DNA of 64,000 nt from Spelaeicoccus albus (GTDB lineage: Bacteria > Actinomycetota > Actinomycetes > Actinomycetales > Brevibacteriaceae), in contig NZ_JACBZP010000001.1 in the NCBI RefSeq assembly GCF_013409065.1, positions 1,364,001-1,428,000 on the forward strand. Reading direction: 5' to 3'. Positions within the stretch are counted from its first letter, which is position 1. Every line of letters starts with the position of its first letter. Position numbers and translations under genes: made by a program. Of the stretch, positions 5,062 through 58,586 are shown one piece after another. The notes under the pieces were generated by a model that was not told where the DNA came from, did no database searches, and was given only the letters and a program-made list of their open reading frames with translations.

Positions 5062-6375
5062 ATGAAGGGTAATACTCGAGACCAGCCAGCCGAGCTACGA
5101 CGTCGCCCGCTTGCACGGGTAGTACTCGCGTCGTCTATCGGCACATTCATCGAATATTATGATTATGCGGTCTTCGGTGCGGTGGCACCGATCATTGCGT
5201 CGCTGTTCTTTCCCTCTAGCGATCCCACGGCGGGATTACTCGCAACCTTTGCAGTGTTCGGGCTAGCATTTGTCCTTCGCCCGGTCGGAGCATTCATATT
5301 CGGTCCGATGGGTGATCGCTTAGGTCGAAAAAAAACGCTGATCATTGTCATAATATGTATGGGGCTAGGCACGTTCATTATTGGTTTCTTGCCGACGTAT
5401 TCTCAGGCCGGTATATTTGCGCCGATTTTGCTTGTCGCCGCGAGACTTGTGCAAGGACTTTCAGCAGGCGGTGAGCTGTCCGGAGCCTCTATCTACGTGG
5501 CCGAGAGCGCGCCGCAGAACCGCCGTGGTCTGATGACGAGTTGGTTACAAGTGGCGAATACCGTTGCTTTCCTTCCCGGCTTGGCAATCGTCGCGATTCT
5601 CGAGAGTGTGCTCTCTGACTCTGCGATGGACAGTTGGGGTTGGCGAATCCCGTTTCTCGTGGCGGGCCCGTTGGCATTCATCGGCCAATACATGCGCCGA
5701 CGATTGGAGGAGTCGCCTGTATTTGAGAATATTGTTGCCGCCGGGTCGCGAACTCGGGCACCGCTAAAAAGCACGTTTACAAATACTGCAACTTATAAAG
5801 ATCTAACATTTATCGTATTCTATGGCGCGGCGACGTTTGTTGGATTCTATTTTATCCTGACATATTTGCCTACATTTGTGAGCACCACGCTTAATTACAA
5901 TTCGAATTTCGGCATCCTTGTCGTTGGGGCGTTTTGTGTCGGTAGCGTGGTCGCGATTCCTGTGGCCGGCTTGCTTTCGGACATAGTCGGCAGGAAACCC
6001 GTTTCGCTTGCGTCGTGTATAGGGTTTTTCGTACTTGCCTACCCTGCCATCTTGTTGCTCAAGCCCGGAAACGTTGTTCTTGCTGTCGTTGCAGGATTGT
6101 TGCTCGCTATCCCGACCTCGGGCTTCCAAGCGGTTTTGTTGGTCACGTCGCTCGAGCGATTCTCGTCGCCCATCCGGTACACGGGGTACGGGGTGGGGTA
6201 TGCATTGCTGTCCGCGATTTTCGGCGGAACCACGCCATACGTCACTGAATCGCTTACGTCGGCGTCTGGGAATTACCTCATGCCAGCTTATATCTTGATG
6301 ACCGCAGCGCTTATATCACTGGTTCCGACGATCTTCATGCGGGAGACGGCTCACAGACGGCTGGTGGATATATAG
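5062..6375 (+). CDS. MFS transporter, metabolite:H+ symporter (MHS) family
   Basis: Protein of 437 residues with about 12 hydrophobic segments. MHS hallmarks: an N-terminal VVLASSIGTFIEYYDYAVFG, the loop 2-3 motif FGPMGDRLGRKKTL, LVQGLSAGGELSGASIYVAE and, in the second half, LSDIVGRKPV. This family imports carboxylates, betaines, shikimate and related compounds with protons. The start at 5062 was chosen for its strong ribosome site AAAGGAG eight bases upstream; an ATG at 5005 would add 19 non-membrane residues. It follows the HisD-like dehydrogenase by 163 bases and probably imports its substrate. Confidence 0.88.
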   Translation: MKGNTRDQPAELRRRPLARVVLASSIGTFIEYYDYAVFGAVAPIIASLFFPSSDPTAGLLATFAVFGLAFVLRPVGAFIFGPMGDRLGRKKTLIIVIICMGLGTFIIGFLPTYSQAGIFAPILLVAARLVQGLSAGGELSGASIYVAESAPQNRRGLMTSWLQVANTVAFLPGLAIVAILESVLSDSAMDSWGWRIPFLVAGPLAFIGQYMRRRLEESPVFENIVAAGSRTRAPLKSTFTNTATYKDLTFIVFYGAATFVGFYFILTYLPTFVSTTLNYNSNFGILVVGAFCVGSVVAIPVAGLLSDIVGRKPVSLASCIGFFVLAYPAILLLKPGNVVLAVVAGLLLAIPTSGFQAVLLVTSLERFSSPIRYTGYGVGYALLSAIFGGTTPYVTESLTSASGNYLMPAYILMTAALISLVPTIFMRETAHRRLVDI

Positions 6376-6800
6376 GCTATTCGGCGTGTTTGAAGCATCT
6401 CGTAAGCGATATTCCCAACTGGACTGAGTCGGTTTCGTGTAAGACATTTCGGTCTCGGAAACCACTCGCGCGACACGTTCAATTGGCTCCGGACAGCCGA
6501 GCCTCTTAGGACGGGTGGCTTCACGCGGGGGCGGTACGCTGGTCGAATCTGTTCTTGAATTGAATTAGGGCGGAAATCGGGTCGTTGGGTCTGAGAGGTT
6601 CGAGCGCGTAGATTCGGGCTTGGCGGGCAGCTCAGATGGCCGAATACGATAGTTCCGAGTAGGGCCGGCGGAGATGTCTGATACAGCGATGTGGTCTTCG
6701 GGACGGTCGCATCAATTGATTGCCGTGGAAGTCCCAATGTGTTTGCCTCTGGGCTGAACATCTCCACTTTTACCGCCGATATATCGTCAAGGCTGCTCCC
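6376..6800. other. Intergenic region, no gene recognised
   Basis: About 425 bases between two genes that converge on it (MHS transporter and ROK regulator). Short frames here lack a family match and have poor starts; no clear hairpin terminator or repeat was found. Confidence 0.5.
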
Positions 6801-8039
6801 TCACGCCGGCAAAAACAGGTGTGACGGGCGCGCGGAAACGGCATTTGCGAGGACCAGCGAAGCTGCTCCGATAGGGCCCACGTCTTCGCCCAGCGTCGTA
6901 CCGCGAATTTCGACACCGTGGACGTCACTGAAAATGTGGAGCTTTTCCACGATGGGCGGCACCACGCGCATGAAGATCGGTGCAAAGGATTGCCAGTTCG
7001 GCCCTCCGAACACGACCGTGTCGAGATCGAGTGTGTTAATGAGGTTGGCGGCGGCCCGTGCGAAGCCGCGAGCGGCCCGCTCGACGATTATGCGCGCTCC
7101 CTCGTGGCCATCATCCGCACGACGACATAATTCCGCTACCGCTTTCTCGACCTCGGCAGCGTCGTCGTGGTCGACGGAATCAATGAGACCGTCGCGTTCA
7201 GCTTGTTTGACGAGATCGAGGGGCATCGCCGTCACGGCGAGACACCCACGGTCGCCGCAGTAGCAGCGCGGTCCGTCCGGATCGCCGGTCAGGTGTCCGA
7301 AGTTGCCGAGATTTCCCGATGATCCGTGCATGATCTCGCCGCCGAGTACGACGCCGACCCCGGCGCCCGTACCGAGATAAATGAATCCAAAATTGTTCGA
7401 CGCGTCGGAATCTGCCCACACCTCTCCAGTGATGGCGGCGACGGTGTCCTTTTCCAGAACGACAGGAATGTTCAGCCGTGCGCTCAGCTCGTCGCGAAGC
7501 CGGACTATCGTCCATCCGCGGAGGTTCGGCGGTCCGATGAGAGCTCCGGCAGCCATCCCAATTGGCCCTGGTGCGGCAACCCCGAGCCCGCTCAGGCTGG
7601 TCGATGACACGTTGTTGCGTTCGATCAGCGTGCGGACGTGCTCGACGAGCGCGTCGATGACATCGGCGGGATCATTGGTCATCGGATTGACAAGGGAGAG
7701 TCGATCGACGATGCACCCACCGAGATCGACAAGCGCGAGAACGGTGCGCGCCGGATCGATGTGCAGACCGATGGCGCACTTGCTGTTCGGGATGATCTCG
7801 TACACGGTCCTGCGCTTGCCGAGGTCCCCCGTCACGCGTCCGGATTCGCGGATGAGGCCTTCCGCCGTGAGACGTCGGCAAATGTTCGTGACGGTCTGGC
7901 CAGCCAGACCTGTCTGATCGGTGAGTTCGACCCGGCTAATGCCCGGTTGTCGGCGGATGAGATCGACGATCAGTACCTGGTTGTAGTCGCTGACGCGCGG
8001 CAGATTCGATCCCCGGTTTCTCAACTTCACTCCCGCCAA
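6801..8039 (-). CDS. ROK-family transcriptional repressor
   Basis: Protein of 412 residues. Residues about 15-75 form a MarR-like winged helix (NQVLIVDLIRRQPGISRVEL, LAGQTVTNICRRLTAEGLI). The rest is the ROK sugar-kinase fold: ATP-binding GLHIDPARTVLALVDLGG, AAPGPIG, LEKDTVAAITGEVW, GFIYLGTGAGVGVVLGGEI, and the zinc cluster CYCGDRGC preceded by FGHLTGDPDGP. ROK regulators of this kind repress a divergent sugar operon until a sugar or sugar phosphate binds. It faces the ABC/sulfatase/mannosidase operon across a 129-base AT-rich gap, so that operon is the likely target. The HTH marks it as a regulator rather than a free-standing kinase. Confidence 0.9.
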   Translation of the reverse strand: MAGVKLRNRGSNLPRVSDYNQVLIVDLIRRQPGISRVELTDQTGLAGQTVTNICRRLTAEGLIRESGRVTGDLGKRRTVYEIIPNSKCAIGLHIDPARTVLALVDLGGCIVDRLSLVNPMTNDPADVIDALVEHVRTLIERNNVSSTSLSGLGVAAPGPIGMAAGALIGPPNLRGWTIVRLRDELSARLNIPVVLEKDTVAAITGEVWADSDASNNFGFIYLGTGAGVGVVLGGEIMHGSSGNLGNFGHLTGDPDGPRCYCGDRGCLAVTAMPLDLVKQAERDGLIDSVDHDDAAEVEKAVAELCRRADDGHEGARIIVERAARGFARAAANLINTLDLDTVVFGGPNWQSFAPIFMRVVPPIVEKLHIFSDVHGVEIRGTTLGEDVGPIGAASLVLANAVSARPSHLFLPA

Positions 8040-42315: not shown

Positions 42316-42804
42316 CTGCTGAGCCCGGCGGCCGCCAGCTCCTTCGAGGTAGCGGGGAGCTTGCGAAATGGCCAAAGTCCAGCTGGTTCCGCTAAGCCGC
42401 TTACATGTCCCGGTGGAGTCCCCCTACGTCGTCGATCCGGTGGCCTTCCGATTAAGAGATCGCCTCATTCGCGGGTTTCTGCGGGATGCCGTGAGCTTCG
42501 ATCATGCCTGGTCAGAGGTCGAATCCGATGTCAGGCTCTACTTCGCTTTGTCGCTGAATCTGCGGAGTAGATGCGAGATCTTGGGGCAGTCTCAGCGAGG
42601 CCCGCGATCACATCGGGTGCAGCGTGCGGTCGGCATCGCTTTAGCTGAGGTGGCTCTAGTCCCATTAAGCGTCTGTGGGCGATCGATCGTAGGAGAAGGT
42701 TGCCGCAGGGTCATCGCTGAGTCGATCCGTCGCTGTGACATACCTCGCCCGTAGTATTGAGAAAGCTCGCCAGTTTGTCTCGTCTACCAGGAGAACTCTC
42801 AATC
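42316..42804. other. Non-coding gap before type I R-M operon
   Basis: About 490 bases. A 128-residue frame at 42368-42754 has no recognisable motif and an ordinary shadow-like composition, so it is not called. AGGAGAA at 42789-42795 is the ribosome site for hsdM. The operon promoter should lie here but no consensus was identified. The preceding 41607-41978 stretch also shows no gene. Confidence 0.45.
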
Positions 42805-44808
42805 GTGTCAGCTCTGTCAGGCTTCGTATGGAGTGTCGCCGACACTCTGCGTGGCCCGTATTCCGAGTCCGAGTACGGCTCTGTCATCCTCCCGTTCACG
42901 GTGCTGCGGCGCCTGGAATGTGTCATGGATCCACACCGGGAAGTGATGGCGGAGGTCGTCGCCGGCTACGAGGGGGAACAGCAGCGGCGCACGCACCTGA
43001 AGCTGAAGACACGGACGGCCGATAACCCTGGCCTGTCGTTATGGACGACGAGCGACTACACGTTGAAGAAGGCGCTGCAAGACCCCGACAACCTCGCGGA
43101 GAACCTCATCGACTACGTCGGCGGGTTCTCGACGAACCTCGACGTGTTCAAGTCCTTCGACTTCGAGAACATCATCCGCACGCTAGACAGCCGCGACCGA
43201 CTGCAGCAGGCGACCCGACACTTCGAGAGCATCGATCTGTCGCCGGGTTCAGTGTCGAACGCCGACATGGGCGACCTGTTCGAGAACCTCATCTACCGCT
43301 TCGCTGAGTCGGCCAACGAGGGCGCAGGCCAGTTCTACACCCCGCGCGACGTCGTTAGGCTCCTGGTCGACCTCGTCTATGCCGATGACGCCGATGCTCT
43401 TCGAGGCCGCGGTACGGTCCGATCGATCTACGACCCGACCGTCGGCACCGGAGGTATGCTCAGCGTCGCCGACGATCACCTGCGCAGCTTCAGCCCGGAC
43501 GCGTCGACGGCGCTGTTCGGACAGGAGATCAACAAGCGCACCTATGCGATCTGCAAGGCCGATCTGCTCATCACCGGCCAGGACCCGACCAACGTCCGTC
43601 AGGGCGACACGCTCACCGTCGACCGATTCGAGGACCGCCAGTTCGACTACGTCCTGTCGAACCCGCCCTTTGGGACCGACTGGAAGGCCGTCGAATCGGA
43701 CGTAAAGGCAGAGCACGCTCGCGGCGGACAGGGGCGCTTCGCGCCCGGGCTTCCTGCGGTCGGTGATGCGGCGATGCTCTTCCTCCTGCACGTCGCCTCG
43801 AAGATGCGCGACGTCGACGAGACAGGTCGCGGAGGCAAGGCCGGCATCGTCTTGAACGGTTCGCCGCTGTTCAACGGCGGGGCGGGCTCGGGGCCGTCGG
43901 AGATCCGCGGCCACATGCTCGAGAATGATCTCGTCGAGGCGATCGTGGCACTGCCGAACGACATGTTCTACAACACCGGCATCGCGACCTACCTGTGGAT
44001 CCTGTCGAACGCGAAGCCGGAGGACCGCAAGGACACGGTCCAGCTGATCGATGCGACGGGTCTCGGCGCGAGGCTGCGCAAGTCGATCGGGTCGAAGAGA
44101 ATGGAGATCCCTGACGCGCACCGCGACGCCGTCGTGCGAGCCTTCACCGGCACCTTGAGCGAGGACGATGTCGAGGTCCCGGTGAAGACGTTTCACAAGC
44201 GCGACTTCGCGTACTGGACGGTCACAGTCGAGCGCCCACTGCAGCTGCGGTTCCAGTGCACGCCAGAAGCGATCAGCACCGTGGCGGAGCAGAAGACCCT
44301 GGCGAAGATCGACGGCCTCACCGCGGCGCTCGAGGCGTTCGGCGACGACGTCTACCTGAACCGAGAAAAGTTCGACAAGGAGCTCGGTCGCCACCTCGGA
44401 GATCACGGCGTGAAGCTCACGCCGGCACAGCGCAAGAAGCTGTGGCAGACGGTCGGCGTCCACGACGAGACGGCCGACTACTGCCGCGTGCAGTCTGGCA
44501 AGAATAAGGGCGATCTCGAGCCGGATCCCGCGCTTCGCGACACCGAGAACGTCCCGTTCGGCTGGAGTGATTACCCCAAGACGCACGAGGCGTGCGAGGA
44601 GACTGTGCAGGCGTACTTCGCCGCGGAAGTGAAGCCGTACGTTGCCGATGCGTGGATTGACTGGGACAAGACGAAGACCGGGTACGAAATTCCGTTCACG
44701 CGCCACTTCTACACGTATGAGCCGCCCCGGCCACTCGAAGAGATCGACGCCGACCTGGAGCACGTCGTCGGCGAGATCATGGAGCAGTTGCGGGACGTGG
44801 AAGCATGA
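42805..44808 (+). CDS. hsdM: Type I restriction-modification methyltransferase subunit HsdM
   Basis: Protein of 667 residues. GTG start at 42805 gives the typical SALSGFVWSVADTLRGPYSE N-terminus and follows AGGAGAA; a TTG at 42757 would add 16 residues without a ribosome site. N6-adenine methylase motifs: helical HsdM_N domain, FYTPRDVVRLLVDL, motif I DPTVGTGGMLSVAD (about residue 210), and motif IV YVLSNPPFGTDW (NPPF near 287). Methylates adenine in the recognition sequence using SAM, in complex with HsdS, protecting host DNA. A C-terminal extension of about 200 residues beyond the catalytic core is present. ATGA overlap with hsdS. Confidence 0.95.
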   Translation: MSALSGFVWSVADTLRGPYSESEYGSVILPFTVLRRLECVMDPHREVMAEVVAGYEGEQQRRTHLKLKTRTADNPGLSLWTTSDYTLKKALQDPDNLAENLIDYVGGFSTNLDVFKSFDFENIIRTLDSRDRLQQATRHFESIDLSPGSVSNADMGDLFENLIYRFAESANEGAGQFYTPRDVVRLLVDLVYADDADALRGRGTVRSIYDPTVGTGGMLSVADDHLRSFSPDASTALFGQEINKRTYAICKADLLITGQDPTNVRQGDTLTVDRFEDRQFDYVLSNPPFGTDWKAVESDVKAEHARGGQGRFAPGLPAVGDAAMLFLLHVASKMRDVDETGRGGKAGIVLNGSPLFNGGAGSGPSEIRGHMLENDLVEAIVALPNDMFYNTGIATYLWILSNAKPEDRKDTVQLIDATGLGARLRKSIGSKRMEIPDAHRDAVVRAFTGTLSEDDVEVPVKTFHKRDFAYWTVTVERPLQLRFQCTPEAISTVAEQKTLAKIDGLTAALEAFGDDVYLNREKFDKELGRHLGDHGVKLTPAQRKKLWQTVGVHDETADYCRVQSGKNKGDLEPDPALRDTENVPFGWSDYPKTHEACEETVQAYFAAEVKPYVADAWIDWDKTKTGYEIPFTRHFYTYEPPRPLEEIDADLEHVVGEIMEQLRDVEA

Positions 44809-46121
44809 CCCGCGAGGATTGGATCGGCGACTTGCCGCCTGCGTGGACCATTGTACGTCTGGGCGCTCTCGGGAGCCTCGGCAAAGGAAGTGGTGGATCC
44901 AAGGAGGACAACCGTGATTCGGGCGTCCCTGTAGTGCGATACGGCGAGCTCTACACGAAGTTCGACAGGGTCATCAGGGATGCACACTCTTTCATCAGCC
45001 CGGATGACTCTTATCGTTATACACCGCTCCCGAGAGGGAGTCTGGTGTTCGCGGGATCTGGAGAAGATCCTGAGGAGATCGGTAAAGCAGCGTTGTCACT
45101 CCTCGCATCACCGGCGTTCGTAGGCGGCGACTCAGTAGTCTTCACGCCGCATCGTGCGGTGGTCGACTCTGTTTACCTTACATATGTGTTGGACTCGAAG
45201 CCGTTGAGAGCGCACAAAGCTATTCGTTCGACCGGCTTCACCGTCGTGCACATCAGTGCTGGAAAGCTGAAGACGTTACCGATCCCGCTCCCGCCACTCG
45301 ACGAGCAGCGTGCCATTGCAGACTACCTGGACCACGAGACGGCCCAGATCGACGCGCTTGTGACGAAGCAGGATGAGCTGATTCGACTGCTAAAGGAACG
45401 ACGGATAGCAGTGCGCTCAGCTCTCGCGACCCGAGGCGTGTCCGCCGACGTCGACCTTTCCCCGACTGACCTCGTCTGGGCTCCAAAAGTTCCTGCCGCT
45501 TGGCGAGTCGTGCCATTGACGAGTATCGCGAAACTGGAGAGCGGGCACACGCCCAGCCGAAGCCGTCCGGAGTGGTGGGTGGACGCTTACATCCCATGGA
45601 TAAGCCTGAATGATGTATCCGCTCTTTCTGACTGGGAGTACATCGCGGAGACGGTCAACCTGATCAGCGATGCGGGGATTGCCAACAGTTCGGCGCGCCT
45701 GCTCCCTGTGGGAACCGTCGTCCTCTCGCGTGACGCTACCATCGGACGATCGGCGATCATGCAAGCGCCGATGGCCACATCACAACACTTTGCGAACTGG
45801 GTATGCGGCCCAGCTTTAAACCCGAGATACCTCTGGCTGTTGTTCACGTCAGCGATGCAGCAGTACTTCGACAGCCTGACGGACGGGTCGACTATCAGGA
45901 CGATCGGGATGGGCGACCTAAGAGCGTTTAAGATCCCCTTGCCGTCACCAGAAGAGCAAGAGCGCATCGTGTACAGAGCGCATCACGCGACCTCCCGCAT
46001 CGATACCCTCATCGCCAAGGCTGAAGAGCACATCGCGCTGGCGAAGGAGCGCCGTGCCGCGTTGGTCACGGCGGCGGTGACGGGGCAGTTCGACGTGCGC
46101 ACAGCACGAAAGGCTGGTTGA
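44805..46121 (+). CDS. hsdS: Type I restriction-modification specificity subunit HsdS
   Basis: Protein of 438 residues with two target-recognition domains, each followed by a conserved helical spacer: PLPPLDEQRAIADYLDHETA with QIDALVTKQDELIRLLKERR near residue 165-205, and PLPSPEEQERIVYRAHHATS with RIDTLIAKAEEHIALAKERR near residue 380-425. The two TRDs read the two halves of a bipartite DNA site; the site cannot be deduced here. Start overlaps hsdM (ATGA). Confidence 0.94.
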   Translation: MTREDWIGDLPPAWTIVRLGALGSLGKGSGGSKEDNRDSGVPVVRYGELYTKFDRVIRDAHSFISPDDSYRYTPLPRGSLVFAGSGEDPEEIGKAALSLLASPAFVGGDSVVFTPHRAVVDSVYLTYVLDSKPLRAHKAIRSTGFTVVHISAGKLKTLPIPLPPLDEQRAIADYLDHETAQIDALVTKQDELIRLLKERRIAVRSALATRGVSADVDLSPTDLVWAPKVPAAWRVVPLTSIAKLESGHTPSRSRPEWWVDAYIPWISLNDVSALSDWEYIAETVNLISDAGIANSSARLLPVGTVVLSRDATIGRSAIMQAPMATSQHFANWVCGPALNPRYLWLLFTSAMQQYFDSLTDGSTIRTIGMGDLRAFKIPLPSPEEQERIVYRAHHATSRIDTLIAKAEEHIALAKERRAALVTAAVTGQFDVRTARKAG

Positions 46122-46126
46122 AGACG

Positions 46127-49100
46127 ATGGCGTTATTAGACGGTACCCGCGAGGAAGCGCTCGAGGTTGAGATCGCTGAATTCCTCGGTAAGCATGAGTG
46201 GCTATACAGCCCGAACGACGACGGCTATGACACGGAGCGTGCGATCTGGTCCGAGGACGTGCTCTGGTGGCTCAGCGAGACCCAGCCAGACGAATACGCG
46301 AAGGTAGTGCGCGTCGGCAACGGTGCCGAGCAGGCCGATCGCGAGGCGTTGCTGTCGACGCTCGTCACTCGACTGGACACTTCGATGAGTTCGGGCGGCG
46401 GGACGCTCAACGTCCTGCGTCGGAAGTTCTCGCACACGCGCGGGGCGACGGCGCATTTCCGGATGTGCCAGTTCAAGCCGGCGACGACCCTGAATAAGAC
46501 CGTGACCGAGCAGTACCAGAAGGTGCGGCTGCGCGTTGCCCGGCAGGTCTACTTCTCGCCGAAGAGAGGGGATACGCGGTCGATCGACCTCGTCTTCTTT
46601 GTCAACGGCCTGCCCGTGGCGACCTGCGAACTGAAGTCGTTCTTCAAGCAGCAGTGGCGCACGGCCGTCACCCAGTACCGGAAGGACCGAGACCCGGCCG
46701 GCCAGCCGCTGCTCGGGTTCGGCACGCGCGCGCTGGTGCACTTCGCGGTCGACGACGACGAGGTGCACATGACGACGAAGCTGGCGGGGGAGACGACATA
46801 CTTCCTGCCCTTCAACCGGGGCCATGACGACACCGGTGCCGCGGGGAACCCAGCGAATCCTTCGCGGCCTGCGACCTCGTACCTCTGGGAGGAGGTGCTG
46901 CAGCGCGACAACTTCCTGTCGGTCCTCGGCTCGCAGATGTTCCTGAAGACCGACTTGGACGAGGACCCGGCGACGGGGAAGATCACGCGGTCGACGGCGC
47001 TGATGTTCCCGCGCTATCACCAATGGCGTGCGGTGAAGAAAGTCGTCGACACGATCGGCGACGAGGGCCCAGGCCGCAGGTACCTGATCGAGCACTCTGC
47101 CGGGTCGGGGAAGACGAACACGATCGCGTGGACGGCGCATCGCCTCGCCCGCTTGCACGACCGGTCGAACGAGAAGGTGTTCGACAAGGTCATCATCGTC
47201 TCGGACCGCCGGGTGCTGGATGCGCAGCTACAGCAGGCGGTGGAGCAGGTCGACGACGCTCGCGGCATTGTCGCAGTGATCGACTCGCCGGCCGTGCGCC
47301 GCTCCGGGGGCTCGAAGTCTCGGGCGCTGCTGGACGCGCTGACCGGGTCGTCGCTGATCATCGTCGTCACGCTGCAGACGTTCCCGTTCGTGAAGGATCT
47401 GCTGGAGACGAAGCTCGGCACGAAGAACTTCGCGGTGATCGTCGACGAGGCTCATACCTCTCAGTCGGGCAAGACGGCGGCGGAGCTGAAGAACGTGCTC
47501 ACCGAAGGCGGCGAGCTCGCCGATGATGACGAGTTCGATGGTCAGGATGTGATTAATCAGCTCGTCGAAGCGGACGCGGCCCGTGAACGCCAGATCGCGG
47601 CGGAGACGGCGGCGCGCGCCGGCGCGCGGAACGTGTCGCTGCTGGCGTTCACGGCGACGCCGAAGGCGAAGACGAAGCAGCTGTTCGGTCGTCCGGGTGA
47701 TGATGGCATGCCGGTCTCGTTCGACGTGTACCCGATGCGGCAGGCAATTGAGGAGGGCTTCATCCTCGACGTGCTCCGCGGCTACCAGACGTACCGGACG
47801 GCGTTCGAGATCGAGCAGCAGGGCAAGGCCGGGATCGCGACGGGCATCGGCCCGGACGACGATCTTCTCGTGGACCCGAAGACGGCGACGCGGAAGATCA
47901 TGCGGTTCGCGAACCTGCATCCGACGAACATCGGCCAGAAAGTCGAGATCATCGTCGAGCATTTTCGGGCCAACGTCGCGCACCTGCTGGACGGGCACGC
48001 GAAGGCGATGGTCGTCACCGACTCTCGCCAGGCTGCACTTCGGTACAAGATCGAGACCGACAAGTACCTCAAGCAGCGCGGATACGCGTACCAGTCGATC
48101 GTCGCGTTCAGCGGCAGCTTGAGCGACGAGGACTATGGCATCGAGGACGCGACCGAGGCATCGATGAACTCCGGCGTCGGGTCCGACCTCGTGCGGGAGT
48201 TCCGCCGCTCCGAGTACCGGCTCATGATCGTCGCCGACAAGTTTCAGACCGGCTTCGACCAGCCGCTGCTGTGCGCGATGTATGTGGACAAGAAGCTGCC
48301 GGACGTGCATGCGGTGCAGACGCTGTCGCGCCTGAACCGTACGTATCGTGCGCCGTCGGGGGAGATGAAGGACCGCACGTTCGTGCTCGACTTCGTCAAC
48401 GATCCCGATGACATCCACGAAGCGTTCTTGACGTACTACCTCGAGGCGTATGTGGAGAAGGAGACCGACCCGAACCTCGTGCACCAGTTGGCCACCAAGC
48501 TCGCTCAGGCTCGGATTTACACTCCGAACGATGTCGAGCGCTATGCGGAGGCATGGTGGGCGCGGAAGCAGTCGCATGCCGCGCTGGCCGCGGCCGTGAC
48601 TCCGGCGCGCGATGAGTTCGTCGCCCGCTGGAACGAAGCGCAGGCCGACGAAGACAGCGAAGCGCTCGACGAACTGCGCACGTTCCGGAAGGACTGCGGC
48701 TCGTACGTCAGGCTGTACGACTTCATGTCGCAGGTGGTCGACTACGGCACGAGCGACTTGGAGAAGCTCGCCGAGTTCCTGCGTCAGCTGGTGCGTCTGC
48801 TGCCGACCGACGGTGCTGACCCGGACGTGGATGTGTCGGGCTTGGAGATGCGCAGGGTCCGACAGATCGACCAGGGCAGGGCCGACATCGCGTTGTCTGG
48901 AGACCAGGAGGCTCCGGGCCTGCAAGGGATAACGGGTCTCGGATCGCACGTGTCGCGTCAGGATCCGCAACAGGCGTTGCTGTCGGAGGTGGTGTCGAAG
49001 ATCAACGAGTTGTTCGGCTCCGAGTTCGCCGACCCGCAGATCGAAGGCTTCGTCCACGCAGCGGCTGGCATGGCCGAGGAAGACTCTCGCATCGCTGATC

Positions 49101-49342
49101 AGATTGATCACAACGCGCTCGACCAGTTCATGGCGTCGCCTGAGCTACGCGAGACGCTCACGGATGCGGCTGTGCTCAACGAGGGCGCGTTCGGCAAGCT
49201 CACCGGTGCGCTTACCGGTGAGAGCGACCGCGCCGATGAGTTCATCCGGCTGATCGGGCAGTACCTTTACCAGTCTCGCAGGCTGCGAATGGCGGATGAC
49301 ACAGATTCGGAAGACCACGCGGAATCGGGCAAGGGTGAGTAG
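46127..49342 (+). CDS. hsdR: Type I restriction endonuclease subunit HsdR
   Basis: Protein of 1071 residues. N-terminal PD-(D/E)xK nuclease: RSIDLVFFVNGLPVATCELK with the D and ExK residues near 150-167. SF2 translocase: Walker A IEHSAGSGKTNTIAW near 322, VIVDEAHTSQSGKTA (DEAH) near 438, SLLAFTATPKAKT, and motif VI QTLSRLNRTYRAPSG. A C-terminal helical region contacts HsdM. It pumps DNA and cuts when unmethylated sites are met. A TTG at 46118 overlapping the hsdS stop is an alternative start; ATG 46127 was preferred. Large antisense frames inside it are shadows. Confidence 0.94.
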   Translation: MALLDGTREEALEVEIAEFLGKHEWLYSPNDDGYDTERAIWSEDVLWWLSETQPDEYAKVVRVGNGAEQADREALLSTLVTRLDTSMSSGGGTLNVLRRKFSHTRGATAHFRMCQFKPATTLNKTVTEQYQKVRLRVARQVYFSPKRGDTRSIDLVFFVNGLPVATCELKSFFKQQWRTAVTQYRKDRDPAGQPLLGFGTRALVHFAVDDDEVHMTTKLAGETTYFLPFNRGHDDTGAAGNPANPSRPATSYLWEEVLQRDNFLSVLGSQMFLKTDLDEDPATGKITRSTALMFPRYHQWRAVKKVVDTIGDEGPGRRYLIEHSAGSGKTNTIAWTAHRLARLHDRSNEKVFDKVIIVSDRRVLDAQLQQAVEQVDDARGIVAVIDSPAVRRSGGSKSRALLDALTGSSLIIVVTLQTFPFVKDLLETKLGTKNFAVIVDEAHTSQSGKTAAELKNVLTEGGELADDDEFDGQDVINQLVEADAARERQIAAETAARAGARNVSLLAFTATPKAKTKQLFGRPGDDGMPVSFDVYPMRQAIEEGFILDVLRGYQTYRTAFEIEQQGKAGIATGIGPDDDLLVDPKTATRKIMRFANLHPTNIGQKVEIIVEHFRANVAHLLDGHAKAMVVTDSRQAALRYKIETDKYLKQRGYAYQSIVAFSGSLSDEDYGIEDATEASMNSGVGSDLVREFRRSEYRLMIVADKFQTGFDQPLLCAMYVDKKLPDVHAVQTLSRLNRTYRAPSGEMKDRTFVLDFVNDPDDIHEAFLTYYLEAYVEKETDPNLVHQLATKLAQARIYTPNDVERYAEAWWARKQSHAALAAAVTPARDEFVARWNEAQADEDSEALDELRTFRKDCGSYVRLYDFMSQVVDYGTSDLEKLAEFLRQLVRLLPTDGADPDVDVSGLEMRRVRQIDQGRADIALSGDQEAPGLQGITGLGSHVSRQDPQQALLSEVVSKINELFGSEFADPQIEGFVHAAAGMAEEDSRIADQIDHNALDQFMASPELRETLTDAAVLNEGAFGKLTGALTGESDRADEFIRLIGQYLYQSRRLRMADDTDSEDHAESGKGE

Positions 49343-49346
49343 GGCG

Positions 49347-51869
49347 ATGGCGACGAAGAGCGCACCGCACCCGGCGATTCGCGCCGTGAACGAGGACTCT
49401 GAGTCCGTCCCGTATTCGGGCAACGATCGCGGACTGGCCGGCTTGGAGCACGCGACGAGCGTGTCCTTGGCGCGGGCACTTGCCGTCGGCGGCCTCAGCC
49501 GGCTCGACCCGAGTCTCACGACTGTGAACGTCTGGGACCCTGCGGCCGGACTGGGGTTTGCCGGGTACCTCCTGGTCGACGCGCTGCAGAGATCGGGAGC
49601 GCAGGTCCGCTACCGCGGTCAGGACATCAACGAAGCCGCCGTGGCCAAGAGTCGCCGGCGATTCGAGACAGTTCCCGACGCGGAGATTGCCCGTGCGGAC
49701 ACGCTGGCGCACGATGCCTTTGAGGACTTCTGCGCCGATCTGGTGATCGTCGATGCGCCCTGGGGGATGGACTGGCAGGGCTCGGCAGCTGCTGTGGAAG
49801 CACGACAGAAGCACGGCGAGTTCGGATTCGGCCGCCCTCAGCGTTCCGACAGCACCTGGCTGTTCATCTCCTTGGCGCTCGAGAAGCTCCGCCCAGCAGA
49901 GGAAGGTGGAGGACGTGTCGCCACCTTGGTGAACCCCGGTGCGCTGAGTTCTGGCGGTGCAACTGCCGTTGTGCGGGAGCGGATCGTCCAGGCCGGCTTG
50001 CTGGAGTCGGTCACCCGCCTTCCCGACGGCCTCGCACCGAACACGGCGATTCCGCTGTATCTCTTGACCTTCTCGAACAAACCTGAGGACGTCGCCCGTG
50101 GCAAGGCGATGATCGCCGATCTGCAGACCGAGTTCACGATCCAGCGCCGGCACCGCTCGATGCGGGGCAATGCCTTCCGGGATCTCGAGTCGGGGCTCAG
50201 GACCGGTAAGCCCGGGCCCCGCAACCGCAACATCGCCGTCCGGCAGTTCACTCGACGAGACACACGCCTCGAACGGGTGTCGAACGAGGGAAAGCGGCTT
50301 TCATGGCGTGTGACGACGTACGCCGACACACCGATCGACGACCGGTTCCTGGAGTCCCGCTACGGTCCGGCCTCTGGGGTATCGGTCGTCGGCGACAACC
50401 GGGAGACCATCGATCTCGACCCGAGCCGCTTCTTCGGGGACGATTCGCGCGAGCTTTTCAAGGACATCGAGTCGAAGGGCTGGCGGGCGCGACGGCTGAG
50501 TAGCTTGATCGCATTCGAGCCTGTGTCTGTGAAAGCTTCAGGAAATTCCGCTCCAGACGGGCAGCTGTACGTCCCGACGACGCGAGAGGGCAAAGTGGCC
50601 GCGGAGACCTCTGCCACGGGCTCCAGTGGTCGGGTCCTCTCAATCCGGTTGGATGACGAGGTGGTCGACCCGAACTTCTTGACGGCGTGGCTCAACTCGG
50701 AGCAGGGTTTCTCCAGTCGCCGGCGGGCCATCGAGGCCAGCAGCACTGGGACTTTCCTCCACGCGCTGAGATCGGACTCCAGATCCTTGATGCGCTGGGC
50801 GGATGAGCTCATTGTCCCCGTGCCGGATCGCGGCACGCAGCTCGCGCTCGTGTCGGCCGATGAGCGACTCGCTTCCTTCGAAGCAGAACTGAACGCCCAG
50901 CGAGAGAGCGTCTGGGCGTCTCCCGAAACTGCCGAGTCTGTCGTGAGCAGAATCGCTGGCGCATTCGACGACTCGGTCAGCGCGTGGCTGGACCAGCTGC
51001 CGTACCCGGTCGCTTCGGCGTTGTGGACTGCTGAGACGGCATCGACGCCTGGTGAGCAGCAACGCGCCTACATCCACGCGTGGGAAGCGATCGTGACGTT
51101 CCATGCCACCGTCCTGCTCTCTGCGAGTCGCACCGATCCGGGAAACAGTGGTGAGGTCGAGGCCGCGATCGGAGACGCGTTGCAGCAGCAGCATCTGGGC
51201 ATCGAGCGGGCCTCGTTCGGGACTTGGGTGATCATCATCGAACGAGTTTCGAAGGAGTTTCGCCGGGCGCTCGAAGGAGGCGACGCCGATGAAATCGCTC
51301 GTGTACGCAGATCGTTCGCCGACCTGGGCCAGGGCGGGATAGAACGGCTGGTCTCGAAGAACCTCGTCAAGAAGGTCAACGAGGTGAACACCAAGCGGAA
51401 TCGGTGGCTCGGCCATACCGGCTATACCTCGGACGAGGAGTGGAGGGCGCAGGTGGTGTCCCTCGTGTCGGACCTCAGCGAACTGCGGCAGATCCTCGGG
51501 AATGTCTGGACACAGCTGCTCCTTGTGCGCGCCGGAAGCTCGAAGCTCCGACGCGACGGGCGCGTCCAGACGGCTGAAGTCGCGGTCGGGACCCGATCCC
51601 CGTTCAAGACCAAGGACTTCAGCATCGGCGACGAGATGATCCACGGCAACTTGTACCTGGTGCGGGATGGGTCGCAGACGCCGTTGCGGTTGGGACAGTT
51701 CGTGCAGCTGCGCGCGTCTCAGCGGGACGCGCAGTACACGACCTACTTCTACAACCGGACGGAGGGTGCCAGTGTCCGCATGGTCAGCTATCAATACGGT
51801 CCGGAGAGCGAGATCCAAGACGACGCTGAGGGATTCCGCTCGGCATTTGGGGGGTTGGCGCTCGGATGA
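49347..51869 (+). CDS. N6-adenine methylase-like protein with S-subunit-like segment and possible HEPN C-terminus
   Basis: Protein of 840 residues, starting four bases after hsdR (AAGGGTGAGTAGGG upstream). Residues 30-220 form an N6-methylase-like core with motif I VWDPAAGLGFAGYL and motif IV LVIVDAPWGMDW, where DAPW replaces the usual NPPY/NPPF. From about 370 to 540 it resembles a type I specificity domain: GWRARRLSSLIAFEPV, DPNFLTAWLNSEQGF, WADELIVPVPDRGTQLALVS. The C-terminal 270 residues are helical and contain KRNRWLGHTG near 682-690, similar to the Rx4-6H signature of HEPN ribonucleases. It is not a standard HsdM. A modification or sensing protein added to the type I locus is the most cautious description. 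Confidence 0.75.
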   Translation: MATKSAPHPAIRAVNEDSESVPYSGNDRGLAGLEHATSVSLARALAVGGLSRLDPSLTTVNVWDPAAGLGFAGYLLVDALQRSGAQVRYRGQDINEAAVAKSRRRFETVPDAEIARADTLAHDAFEDFCADLVIVDAPWGMDWQGSAAAVEARQKHGEFGFGRPQRSDSTWLFISLALEKLRPAEEGGGRVATLVNPGALSSGGATAVVRERIVQAGLLESVTRLPDGLAPNTAIPLYLLTFSNKPEDVARGKAMIADLQTEFTIQRRHRSMRGNAFRDLESGLRTGKPGPRNRNIAVRQFTRRDTRLERVSNEGKRLSWRVTTYADTPIDDRFLESRYGPASGVSVVGDNRETIDLDPSRFFGDDSRELFKDIESKGWRARRLSSLIAFEPVSVKASGNSAPDGQLYVPTTREGKVAAETSATGSSGRVLSIRLDDEVVDPNFLTAWLNSEQGFSSRRRAIEASSTGTFLHALRSDSRSLMRWADELIVPVPDRGTQLALVSADERLASFEAELNAQRESVWASPETAESVVSRIAGAFDDSVSAWLDQLPYPVASALWTAETASTPGEQQRAYIHAWEAIVTFHATVLLSASRTDPGNSGEVEAAIGDALQQQHLGIERASFGTWVIIIERVSKEFRRALEGGDADEIARVRRSFADLGQGGIERLVSKNLVKKVNEVNTKRNRWLGHTGYTSDEEWRAQVVSLVSDLSELRQILGNVWTQLLLVRAGSSKLRRDGRVQTAEVAVGTRSPFKTKDFSIGDEMIHGNLYLVRDGSQTPLRLGQFVQLRASQRDAQYTTYFYNRTEGASVRMVSYQYGPESEIQDDAEGFRSAFGGLALG

Positions 51870-52225
51870 CCCTGACGCTCGAACCGATCCTCCGCAGCGC
51901 CGGGATCGACCCTGACGACGCCCATGCCATCCGCCACGCATTCGTGCGCGAGCACGAGGACTCCGGACTGCCCGGCATCAACGCGGACTCGACCGCCGAG
52001 GAGATCCTCGCGTACACGAGCCAGCAGTCGGCGAGGCCGAAGATTTTCCCAGCGCACCCGCCCAGGCTCTGGGTCGTGTTCATCCGCGAGGGCGGAGACC
52101 GGGCCCGGCTATGGTCGGTGCTGGAGAACCGCGGCGAGGTCTCCAACGACGGCGCTCGGCGCATCTTCGACTTCGTCGTCTCCGAACACCTCGCGGATCT
52201 CAGAAACCGCCTCGTGATCGGCTGA
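51866..52225 (+). CDS. N-terminal part of a GIY-YIG nuclease gene interrupted by in-frame TGA
   Basis: 119 residues up to a TGA at 52223-52225, coupled to the methylase-like gene by ATGA. It contains LEPILRSAGIDPDDAHAIRH and, later, RPKIFPAHPPRLWVVFIREG, matching the N-terminal region usual in this GIY-YIG family. The next codons continue in the same frame (RSPRTWRLNG) into the GIY-YIG domain, so this is the first half of one gene. The TGA stands where family members usually have tryptophan (I-x-W), consistent with TGG to TGA. Confidence 0.6.
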   Translation: MTLTLEPILRSAGIDPDDAHAIRHAFVREHEDSGLPGINADSTAEEILAYTSQQSARPKIFPAHPPRLWVVFIREGGDRARLWSVLENRGEVSNDGARRIFDFVVSEHLADLRNRLVIG

Positions 52226-52279
52226 CGGTCACCTCGCACCTGGCGTCTCAACGGTCCGACGGCGGCCGGCTACCCGGTC

Positions 52280-52678
52280 GTGGAGATCGCCGACGCGCAG
52301 CCGGTGCCGTTCCCCGGCTTCGACCGGCTCGTCCTCGACCGCGCGCAGCTGCAGGCGGTCATGCGCGAGCACCAGTACGCGGCCTGGAGGGCGGCGCTCT
52401 CGTCTGTGGTGGGCATCTACCTGATCACCGATACCCGCTACGGACGCCATTACGTCGGCAAGGCGGATGGTGCCGAGAGCATCCGACAGTGCTGGAGTGC
52501 CTATGTGGCGAACGGTCATGGCGGCAACGTCGAACTGCGTGGCCGCGACCCTGCGACCTTCCGCTACCCCATCCCGCGAGTGTTCGACCCGGCAACGCCG
52601 AGGCGGGAGGTCGACGAGGCCGAAAGCCATTTCAAATACGCGCTGGACACCCGCAGGCACGGGCTGAACCGGAACTGA
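52280..52678 (+). CDS. GIY-YIG endonuclease domain (C-terminal part of the split gene)
   Basis: 132 residues from GTG 52280, same frame as the upstream half. The GIY-YIG core is complete: VVGIYLITDTRYGRHYVGKA, QCWSAYVANGHGGNVELRGR, then RYPIPRVFDP and the metal-ligand glutamate region EVDEAESHFKYAL. These domains nick or cut DNA using one divalent metal. It might be expressed alone from this start, by readthrough of TGA 52223, or not at all. Linked to the type I R-M locus and methylase-like gene. Confidence 0.65.
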   Translation: MEIADAQPVPFPGFDRLVLDRAQLQAVMREHQYAAWRAALSSVVGIYLITDTRYGRHYVGKADGAESIRQCWSAYVANGHGGNVELRGRDPATFRYPIPRVFDPATPRREVDEAESHFKYALDTRRHGLNRN

Positions 52679-52712: not shown

Positions 52713-53549
52713 TCAGCGCCCGGGCGGCGTGCGGTCGATGCGCGAGCGCAGGCCCGGAGGCAGGTTCACGTAGCGGTCGCCTTTGTGCACTGGAGCGATG
52801 TCGGAGGGATTGACCTCGGCCAACGGCTCGGGCGACGCGATGTACAGGTCATCGTTGCTGGTCACCGTCCAGCCATGCGCCCGGTAGAAGGTTCGGAGCT
52901 GCACGTCGTCGGTGGCCAGCGGGATGCCCGTCGTGAGGGAAGTGGCCGCGACGTACATGTCGTTCATCGCGTTTCGCACCGTTCCCCTCACATGCAGGCC
53001 GGAGTCGACTAACTCGTTCGCCAGCGCCCCGGCGCAGGCGGCGATGCTTTCGTCCAGCGGGATCACCATATCCAGCTCTTCACGGAGGAACTCCCACTTG
53101 TCCATGATTCGGCTCAGCTGCTTGCGCCTCAGCGCGCGAGAGGCGAAAACGCGGAAGAGCCGGTCCTGCCCCGTTTCGTGTGCGAGCGAGATCGCCCAGT
53201 GGCCGAGTTCGCGTGTCTCCGGGCACAGCCGAGAGGCAGGCACAATGAGGGAGTCCGTCTGCCTGGACACCGGCCTGTGCTTCGCGTGCTCGGACATCCA
53301 GCGTAGGAACTGGGCCGAAGAGACGCCCGCGTGGTGGACAATGCGGTCCTCCATCACCGGGAGGGCGTAGCGATATCTCACCTCCCTGTCCGGCCTCTGC
53401 ATACCGAGGACCTCCTGGACGGAGGTCGATGAGGTCACCAGCGTCGCACCGTTCCAAGACTCGTGCTCCGCCAGCTTCTCCGGCGACAGGACGTTGGTGT
53501 CGAGAAGGAGAAGTTTGGATGATTCGGTTGGCACGAGCTGCCCTGTCAC
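52713..53549 (-). CDS. PIN-domain protein, putative toxin-like ribonuclease
   Basis: Protein of 278 residues. PIN acidic sites: Asp17 in KLLLLDTNVLSPEKL, Glu in SSTSVQEVLGM, and the late aspartates in RNAMNDMYVAATSLTTGIPL followed by ATDD. PIN domains are metal-dependent RNases, often toxins. GTG start overlaps the stop of a truncated ImmA/IrrE-type frame (GTGA), so the pair formerly made a two-gene unit; with the partner damaged the current state is uncertain. It converges on the GIY-YIG gene, with only 34 bases between stops. Confidence 0.75.
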   Translation of the reverse strand: MTGQLVPTESSKLLLLDTNVLSPEKLAEHESWNGATLVTSSTSVQEVLGMQRPDREVRYRYALPVMEDRIVHHAGVSSAQFLRWMSEHAKHRPVSRQTDSLIVPASRLCPETRELGHWAISLAHETGQDRLFRVFASRALRRKQLSRIMDKWEFLREELDMVIPLDESIAACAGALANELVDSGLHVRGTVRNAMNDMYVAATSLTTGIPLATDDVQLRTFYRAHGWTVTSNDDLYIASPEPLAEVNPSDIAPVHKGDRYVNLPPGLRSRIDRTPPGR

Positions 53550-56495: not shown

Positions 56496-56673
56496 GCACG
56501 ATCAGGCCACATTTCGCCCGCTCTGTGGGCGCGTCCTACGGTGCCGCTGACCTCGATGATCGGGGTGGCCGTGCCTCGACGCCAGTCGTGTGTCAGTGGT
56601 CAACGGCATACTAAGAGGACGTGCACCCGACGTCGGGCGCACGTCCAGGAGTCCTCGACCGAGCAGGAGCAAA

Positions 56674-57270
56674 TTGACACACGAGAGCGTCGCTGATCCC
56701 GACCGCGATCCATATTTGTTGGCGCAGGTGCGCGAGTCATTCGGGAGAGTGGTTTATAGCCATAAGACTCATGAGAAGCAGGCGGACATCTGCTTCATCA
56801 AGCACCGGTGGCAGCAGGGGGTCCTCATCGCCCTCACCGCGATCAGTTCCGGAACATTCCTGGTCGCAGTCGTCGGGCTGCTCGGCAACCAAGTGCTGAC
56901 CAGCCTCGTGACCTCGTCCATCGCGCTCCTGGTCAGCTGGATGAGCCTCGGGTCGAAGACCTTCAAGTTCGAGGAGGAGTCGGAGGCCCATCGCGGGATC
57001 GCCGCTCGGCTGTGGGACGTGAGAGAGTCCTACATCTCCCTGATCGCCGACCTTATGTCCGGCACCGTCTCCGACGCCGATGGCCGAGAACGCCGGGACG
57101 CGCTCCAGCAGGCGGCTCGTGCAGCGTATGCCGACGCGCTCCGAACGAGCACGAGGGCGTTCGAGCGGGCCAGCGAGGGCCTGCAGCACAACGAGGAGAT
57201 GACCTTCAACTCGCACGAGATTGATCTCTTCCTCCCGGAGGCGTTCCGGCTCCACGAAGGCGAGGCATGA
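56674..57270 (+). CDS. SLATT-domain two-TM effector protein (CBASS-like)
   Basis: 198 residues from TTG 56674, which has CAGGAG four bases upstream; an in-frame GTG at 56590 would add 28 low-complexity residues. Two adjacent membrane segments: GVLIALTAISSGTFLVAVVG and VLTSLVTSSIALLVSWMSLG, preceded by an amphipathic helix YSHKTHEKQADICFIKHRWQ and followed by a coiled region KTFKFEEESEAHRGIAARLW. This is the SLATT layout (SMODS and SLOG-associating 2TM effector), thought to form a pore when a nucleotide second messenger signals infection. It overlaps the nucleotidyltransferase start (ATGA), a strong functional link. Confidence 0.82.
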   Translation: MTHESVADPDRDPYLLAQVRESFGRVVYSHKTHEKQADICFIKHRWQQGVLIALTAISSGTFLVAVVGLLGNQVLTSLVTSSIALLVSWMSLGSKTFKFEEESEAHRGIAARLWDVRESYISLIADLMSGTVSDADGRERRDALQQAARAAYADALRTSTRAFERASEGLQHNEEMTFNSHEIDLFLPEAFRLHEGEA

Positions 57271-58586
57271 CCATGAAGACCTCCGAGACCTTCGACGCGC
57301 TGCTGAACAACCTCAAGGTCGGGGAGACGGCGACCACCGTCGCCGCCCGCAGGGACGAGATCGCCAAGGTGCTCAACAAGAACTTCCGTTCCAAGGACGG
57401 GTGCACCGACTACAAGCTGATGGTCGGCTCGTTCGGCCGGCACACTGCCATCAAGGGTGTGTCCGACCTCGACATGATCTTCATCCTCCCACCGCGGGTC
57501 CGCTCGAACTACGACGGTGAGAGGGGCCCGCGGCGCATGCTCGAGCGGGTCAAGGATGCCCTCACAGACCGGTACCCGAACACCGACATCCGCGTCGACC
57601 AGTGCGTCGTCCGGGTACAGTTCACGTTCAACGCCTTCAAGTTCGAGGTCCAGCCTGCGTTCGAAAACGCCGACGGCAGCTTCGAGTACCCGGACACGAA
57701 GGCCGAGGGCTGGAAGGCCACCAAGCCGCGCGAAGAGATCACCGCGACCAAGGAGTGCAACGACCGCACCTCCACGAACATGCGGCACTTGGCGCGGATG
57801 GCCAGGGCGTGGAAGAACGAGAACGGCGTGAGCATGGGCGGATTGCTCATCGACACGCTCGTCTACAACTTCTTCGCGCAGACGGACGACTACAACTCGG
57901 CCGGCACGGGTTCGTTCGACCGCATGGCCCGCGACTTCTTCAAATTTTTCAAGGACGAACCGGAGCAGGACTACTACCTGGCGCTGGGCAGTCGGCAGCG
58001 AGTCCATGTCAAGGCCAAGTTCCAGTCGAAGGCCAAGAAGGCGTACAACCGCTGTGTCGAGGCGATCGATCTCGGGGGCAAGTCGTCGGCCAACAAGAAG
58101 TGGCGCGAGGTCTTCGGCACGTCCATACCGCTGGCCAAGAGCGCTAGCGAGGCGTCGCGGTCGTTCAGAGACACCGAAGAGTTCATCGAGAACGACTTCC
58201 CGGTCGACGTCTCCGAGACCGTGTCGATCGACTGCGAGGTCACGCAGAACGGGTTCCGTCCGACCTGGCTACGTGCGATGCGCAGAGACAGAATGCTGCT
58301 CAAGGCGGACAAGAGCCTGAAGTTCAAGGTCACGAGCTGCTCAGTCGCTGAGCCCTACTCGTTGAAGTGGAAGGTGCTCAACCGCGGCCCGGAGGCTGAG
58401 CGCCGGGACATGGTCCGAGGCCAGATCGTTGACTCGAGCGGTCGTGGAACAAGGGTGGAGCGCTCCGACTTCAAGGGCGAGCACGTCGTGGAGTGCTACG
58501 TGGTCAAGAACGGGATCGTCGTAGCGCGGGACCGCATCGACGTGCCGATCAGCAACACGAGCGTCAGACGGGAGCCGGGGTCGTAG
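57267..58586 (+). CDS. CD-NTase (SMODS nucleotidyltransferase) with C-terminal sensor domain, CBASS-like
   Basis: 439 residues. Nucleotidyltransferase signature MVGSFGRHTAIKGVSDLDMI with Gly54-Ser55 and Asp67/Asp69; the third acidic position is Glu127 in FKFEVQPAFENADG. ATKECNDRTSTNMRHLARMA and NENGVSMGGLLIDTLVYNFF are the helical core of SMODS proteins. The C-terminal 130 residues (NDFPVDVSETVSIDCEVTQN onward) form a beta-sandwich matching the AGS-C type sensor domain. It would make a cyclic or linear oligonucleotide signal upon phage infection and activate the SLATT membrane protein encoded just upstream. The product nucleotide cannot be deduced. Confidence 0.88.
   Translation: MTMKTSETFDALLNNLKVGETATTVAARRDEIAKVLNKNFRSKDGCTDYKLMVGSFGRHTAIKGVSDLDMIFILPPRVRSNYDGERGPRRMLERVKDALTDRYPNTDIRVDQCVVRVQFTFNAFKFEVQPAFENADGSFEYPDTKAEGWKATKPREEITATKECNDRTSTNMRHLARMARAWKNENGVSMGGLLIDTLVYNFFAQTDDYNSAGTGSFDRMARDFFKFFKDEPEQDYYLALGSRQRVHVKAKFQSKAKKAYNRCVEAIDLGGKSSANKKWREVFGTSIPLAKSASEASRSFRDTEEFIENDFPVDVSETVSIDCEVTQNGFRPTWLRAMRRDRMLLKADKSLKFKVTSCSVAEPYSLKWKVLNRGPEAERRDMVRGQIVDSSGRGTRVERSDFKGEHVVECYVVKNGIVVARDRIDVPISNTSVRREPGS

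Follow-up and report, generated by a model that had tools for sequence, protein, structure and literature searches.

Several described systems come close to the locus presented here. In the PrrC/EcoprrI pair, a type Ic restriction-modification (R-M) system is encoded together with a HEPN anticodon nuclease, PrrC, which was proposed to act as a second line of defence once restriction has been neutralised (PMC3710099). Besides PrrC-PrrI, precedent comes from the R-M-linked HEPN domains in general, which form at least 16 clades (PMC3710099), and Swt1-type HEPN domains are linked to R-M-like loci (PMC3710099, PMC12839542). The present study concerns a gene, hereafter X, carried by a stretch of 64,000 nucleotides of the Spelaeicoccus albus genome (the window; bases 1364001-1428000 of a genome of 4.03 Mb in a single contig). 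X is located 4 bp behind an hsdM-hsdS-hsdR operon (42757-49342) and, like PrrC, it is an RNase-signature protein encoded with hsdMSR; it differs from PrrC in having a methylase-like core and an HsdS-like segment in place of an ABC-type nucleoside triphosphatase (NTPase), and in following many unrelated R-M systems. Our searches of the literature found no description of this architecture, subscription papers being largely outside their reach. We give about even chances to the reading in which X is an accessory effector that moves among restriction systems and acts like PrrC, as a back-up RNase under the control of a degenerate reader composed of a methylase and a target-recognition domain (TRD). 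The features of X and of the operon that precedes it are the following:

49347..51869, + strand: gene X, an 840-aa methylase-like / TRD-like / HEPN-like / OB-like fusion (reading frame, profile matches)
49443..50198, + strand: X residues 33-284, HsdM-type methyltransferase core (Pfam N6_Mtase, 71 bits; hhalign to HsdM, 1.8e-36)
49536..49556, + strand: X motif I, DPAAGLG, for binding of S-adenosylmethionine (SAM) (sequence reading)
49752..49763, + strand: X motif IV, DAPW, non-canonical (sequence reading, comparison with relatives)
50232..50861, + strand: X residues ~296-505, segment resembling one target-recognition half of HsdS (hhalign, E 2.5e-4)
50970..51515, + strand: X residues 542-723, helical HEPN-like bundle (AlphaFold2, mean predicted local distance difference test score (pLDDT) 84, helical core mostly >85; weak in-register profile match to Swt1-type HEPN)
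51396..51416, + strand: RNRWLGH, candidate HEPN active site with R684, N685 and H690 (conservation in 22 sequences)
51516..51824, + strand: X residues 724-826, beta tail whose first 60 residues are OB-like (VIA-align to OB-fold proteins)
42757..44808, + strand: hsdM, type I methylase subunit (N6_Mtase, 192 bits; HsdM_N; motif IV NPPF)
44805..46121, + strand: hsdS, specificity subunit, 438 aa (Pfam Methylase_S)
46118..49342, + strand: hsdR, restriction/translocase subunit (Pfam HSDR_N, SWI2_SNF2)

The Pfam matches and coordinates bear out the complete operon, the four-base gap and the 840 residues given in a first-pass annotation of this DNA; the start of X was set at 49347, rather than at 49296, from the conserved N-terminus of its relatives. 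The X set analysed below comprises 20 close and 4 distant members, loci met twice being counted once (two of the GTDB loci are on the same contigs, judged by length, as two of the three further genomes of the order). Close relatives were retrieved from G044 (79% identical), from three more genomes of the order, from sixteen loci of GTDB genomes and from a Gordonia plasmid, on which X is split by a frameshift. Distant ones are carried by Streptomyces plasmids (28%), G534 (31%) and G732 (26%), with a broken copy in G765. The named hosts are all actinobacteria, among them Mycobacterium, Nocardia, Rhodococcus, Cellulomonas, Georgenia and Leifsonia. The gene is sparsely distributed, with matches in 6 of the 396 genomes of the order sample, two of them judged spurious, and in 5 of 395 genomes of the class sample; a profile search of 396 genomes drawn from the phylum gave no member besides the window's own, and no relative was found in viral contigs or phage records. 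The weak order-wide matches in G401 and G096 were discarded, as they fall on the strand opposite likely genes.

The association of X with restriction systems extends well beyond the window. In 18 of the 24 loci X is preceded by hsdR (17 of the 20 close relatives and one distant relative), which answers the earlier concern that homologues might always stand away from R-M loci. The spacing between both genes runs from a small overlap to ~240 bp in 17 of these 18 loci, several overlapping by 4 bp, and in L099 an open reading frame (ORF) of 241 codons intervenes. The linked R-M systems represent at least five type I lineages, their HsdR being 92, 80-83, 50-51, 44 and 23% identical to that of the window. 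X moves between R-M systems, since it stays 62-79% identical across these lineages while its partner HsdR ranges from 23 to 92%; the clearest partner swap is observed at L085, where HsdR is 23% and X 68% identical to those of the window. The type of the neighbouring system also varies: the G534 copy (L110) is oriented divergently to a type III mod-res pair, and the L094 copy is near a Gabija pair. Type I genes are not in view at L094, L097, L098, L100 and L110, and a reading of the ORFs revealed no R-M genes near X in L097, L098 and the Streptomyces copy. X is thus best seen as an add-on that can be transferred among restriction systems, rather than as a subunit belonging to any one of them. 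At L084 (1-6690), X separates a type I from a type IV-like system, in the order hsdR (end), X, an EVE-AAA McrB-like gene and mcrC.

The C-terminal domain of X likely belongs to the HEPN superfamily. Its RNRWLGH motif satisfies the published definition of the HEPN signature, Rx4-6H with a polar residue after the arginine (PMC3710099). This motif had been correctly recognised in the first-pass annotation, with a residue numbering one too low (R683 and H689 for R684 and H690), and its conservation among homologues, then put forward as a check, was found: R684 and H690 are invariant in 22 of 22 aligned sequences, down to 26% identity and including a kinase-fused version, and N685 is kept in all but one of them. 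The spacing between arginine and histidine is 5 in X and 4 in L111, where T follows R. Such a conserved pair makes the proposed reading of X directly testable. An AlphaFold2 model of the C-terminal 350 residues, built from 22 diverse sequences, was confident (pLDDT 84, predicted template modelling score 0.82). It consists of an all-helical bundle and, after it, a beta domain; RNRWLGH terminates a long helix (181-199 in model numbering) and precedes the helix 206-227. HEPN domains are defined by a core of four helices whose H3-H4 hairpin bears the motif, and the bundle may correspond to such a core, which the first-pass annotation had named as a check. The full-length protein modelled with five close relatives reached a pLDDT of 38, and this model was unusable. 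When the X profile was compared with those of seven Swt1-type HEPN domains, RNRWLGH came in register with RNxWAH with an E-value of 0.0029, which neither the reversed control nor any of 150 column shuffles equalled. The RN.W.H motif is shared in register with Swt1-type HEPN, including HEPN-DUF499 of BREX-related systems; unlike X, the Swt1-type domains are fused to AAA+ ATPases, and their sequence similarity to X is too weak for assignment. The beta tail aligned with several OB-fold proteins (VIA-align Z 5-6, root-mean-square deviation 1.7-2.5 over 52-59 residues). The whole C-terminal module, HEPN-like domain and beta tail, also occurs in G1193 (L123, 9214-11865, - strand), where it is fused to two Ser/Thr kinase domains, scored PD-T4-6-like by PADLOC, which replace the methylase.

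X is under purifying selection, with a ratio of non-synonymous to synonymous substitution rates (dN/dS, Nei-Gojobori) of 0.17 over the whole gene between the window and G044; the HEPN-like part has the lowest value of the protein (0.076). The gene is also a mosaic. Compared with G044 (L033), the methylase-like part is 66% identical and the rest 87%, while with L070-L072, other relatives from the order-wide search that share the same R-M lineage, identity amounts to 78-82% in the methylase part and to 60-70% in the rest. These different nearest relatives of the methylase and C-terminal parts suggest that segments of X have been exchanged between lineages.

The succession within X of an N6 methylase core and then an HsdS-like recognition segment recalls type I HsdM/HsdS, type IIG enzymes and BREX PglX. 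The S-subunit-like segment noticed in the first pass is supported by hhalign, which places it in register with the end of the HsdS target-recognition domain, at the LPxPxxxQ boundary. X differs from these enzymes by an eroded motif IV and by having neither the HsdM N-terminal domain (no HsdM_N match in the Pfam scan) nor a DNase domain recognisable by Pfam. It scores 26 bits against TIGR00497, for a cut-off of 243, and HsdM_N and a canonical motif IV, which characterise type I HsdM, are both missing. The Pfam and NCBIfam scans detected the methylase core only and did not find the N-terminal ABC-type NTPase of PrrC/RloC; no brx or pgl genes were seen among the neighbours of X that were scanned. 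The DPAAGLG and DAPW motifs read as previously claimed, and motif I is kept in most copies. A canonical motif IV, [DNS]PP[YFW], was found in only 1 of 21 readable copies, that of G044 (DPPW), the others being DAPW (14 copies), EIPY (two), DAPS, DPQW, DSPW and DVPM, with EIPY or DVPM in the distant relatives; motif IV is NPPF or NPPY in all five HsdM used for comparison. This single canonical occurrence makes X probably not an active methylase, and suggests that its methylase half has lost catalysis and kept a SAM- or DNA-binding shape. As the family is annotated only as 'N-6 DNA methylase', some of the genes counted as active methylases in actinobacterial genomes may be effectors.

The RNase activity of X and its trigger are what we infer, as is everything that goes beyond the conservation of the fusion, its HEPN-like signature and its link to restriction systems. 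The half that resembles a methylase would mostly have ceased to methylate and would still read DNA and/or SAM, and the C-terminal domain would be a HEPN endoribonuclease that remains silent as long as the reader holds its normal ligand, either modified host DNA, SAM or the Hsd complex. What restrains the RNase may be the reader half of X itself, the Hsd complex or the two together. Once phage DNA, an anti-restriction protein or a loss of SAM upsets this state, it would free the RNase, which would then stop translation or kill the cell as a second line after restriction. An intrinsic sensor is favoured because X occurs with many R-M systems, has no fixed partner and includes orphan copies; restriction failure would then be sensed via a degenerate methylase and recognition domain, not via an NTPase. 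A more far-reaching version is offered tentatively, as possible rather than probable: a catalytically dead, single-chain HsdM-HsdS-like reader of DNA or SAM would directly gate the HEPN RNase and form with it a transferable abortive-infection effector able to clip onto restriction systems of type I, III or IV, the effector module being connected to protein kinases as well. The initial proposal of a self-contained methylase joined to an RNase-like back-up is retained for its second half: the back-up role is plausible and now better supported because of the genomic context with restriction systems, and the methylase is probably inactive.

Several observations weigh against this back-up RNase. 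Some relatives of X stand alone, with no R-M system within reach, so that R-M cannot be the sole trigger, and the canonical DPPW of the G044 copy makes methylation possible for some members. The most distant methylase-type copy reads RTAGAH, in which the asparagine is missing. The Swt1-type match described above has an hhalign probability of just 11%, and Pfam HEPN_Swt1 matches X at noise level (E 0.055), unrelated families scoring equally. Neither Foldseek nor VIA-align returned HEPN structures for the C-terminal model, the Foldseek searches against PDB and BFVD giving no match at E <= 0.001; the absence of a HEPN chain among the VIA-align rows is not evidence against a HEPN fold. Finally, the HEPN domains linked to R-M systems are not fused to methylases according to the 2013 survey (PMC3710099), which reported their fusion to nucleases, helicases and ATPases, and to which X would be an exception if the reading is true.

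The points on catalysis bear directly on another explanation, in which X would be a solitary adenine methylase that is still active and carries a recognition domain itself, adding a second host mark that could protect host sites or regulate genes, and in which the helical C-terminal domain would be a non-catalytic HEPN-like or dimerisation module. The hhalign match of its core to HsdM, the motif I of most copies and the DPPW of G044 are consistent with it, as is the existence of non-catalytic HEPN domains (PMC3710099). We nevertheless regard it as unlikely in view of the non-canonical motif IV of 20 of the 21 copies, replaced by EIPY or DVPM in the distant relatives, and of the HEPN-like arginine and histidine, which are better conserved than the methylase motifs and persist when kinases replace the methylase half. 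The HsdM-like and HsdS-like halves, together with the position of the gene directly after hsdR, could alternatively mean that X imitates HsdM-HsdS in truncated form and serves the type I enzyme as a regulatory decoy, which would bind the same or overlapping DNA or subunits and tune restriction with no toxin involved. Such a role appears quite improbable for a protein whose sequence is kept while its partner HsdM, HsdS and HsdR change completely, which occurs at the loci listed above without type I genes in view, and whose most constrained part is the HEPN-like and not the Hsd-like one.

A last alternative concerns the gene located behind X, which matches over its full length, in two pieces, UzuA of Uzume, a system with a mechanism described as unknown (PMC10482375). 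Its features are:

51866..52678, + strand: uzuA homologue (GIY-YIG family), broken (PADLOC UzuA; in-frame stop)
52223..52225, + strand: in-frame TGA of uzuA, codon 120, Trp in intact relatives (alignment with homologues)
52490..52492, + strand: Cys codon of uzuA in place of the conserved GIY-YIG arginine (alignment with homologues)

X and this GIY-YIG gene would in that case be the two components of a defence unit that is coupled to the R-M operon, a possibility raised by the ATGA overlap between them in the window and by the intact pair of G044. The frame indeed opens at this overlap with the X stop (51866), as first described, and closes at TGA after 119 codons, the GIY-YIG part lying in the same frame past the stop; PADLOC UzuA matches both halves, with 95 and 178 bits. 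The nearest relative, in G044 (L033), has an intact single frame of 270 aa with a Trp at the site of the window's stop. In addition, the window gene reads RQCW, when an Arg precedes the Trp in the 20 other aligned homologues. uzuA follows X in 2 of the 24 loci, including the broken window copy, and is absent behind it in 21, a remnant being present in another one; homologues were detected in 33 of the 396 genomes of the order, away from X wherever their surroundings were fetched. The two-component unit is largely refuted by this distribution, and we consider it very improbable. Because uzuA rarely follows X, the conserved unit is made of four genes, hsdM-hsdS-hsdR-X, and not five: the claims of a new five-gene layout and of a GIY-YIG nuclease as coupled functional partner were dropped. 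With its in-frame TGA, its lost GIY-YIG arginine and its rare presence behind X, the uzuA of the window, which has no regular tie to X, reads as an independent, decayed defence gene, a passenger outside the conserved unit. The remnant, of 25 codons, is situated directly behind X in L071 (6697-6771) and points to repeated loss of uzuA. At L080 (G134; 5075-7986, - strand), an intact uzuA lies directly upstream of a different type I operon, a tie of its own to R-M loci.

The R-M/X locus is part of a defence island, because a CBASS-like pair and a gene with a weak PIN-domain match are located close downstream. The pair, ~4 kb downstream (56590-58586, + strand), consists of a gene for a SLATT_4 effector with two transmembrane segments overlapping a SMODS/AGS_C CD-NTase gene, and the other gene, possibly a toxin gene, adjoins the broken uzuA (52713-53549, - strand). 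Within the restriction operon itself, hsdM and hsdR are 90-92% identical to their G044 counterparts, while hsdS is only ~37% identical in the same comparison.

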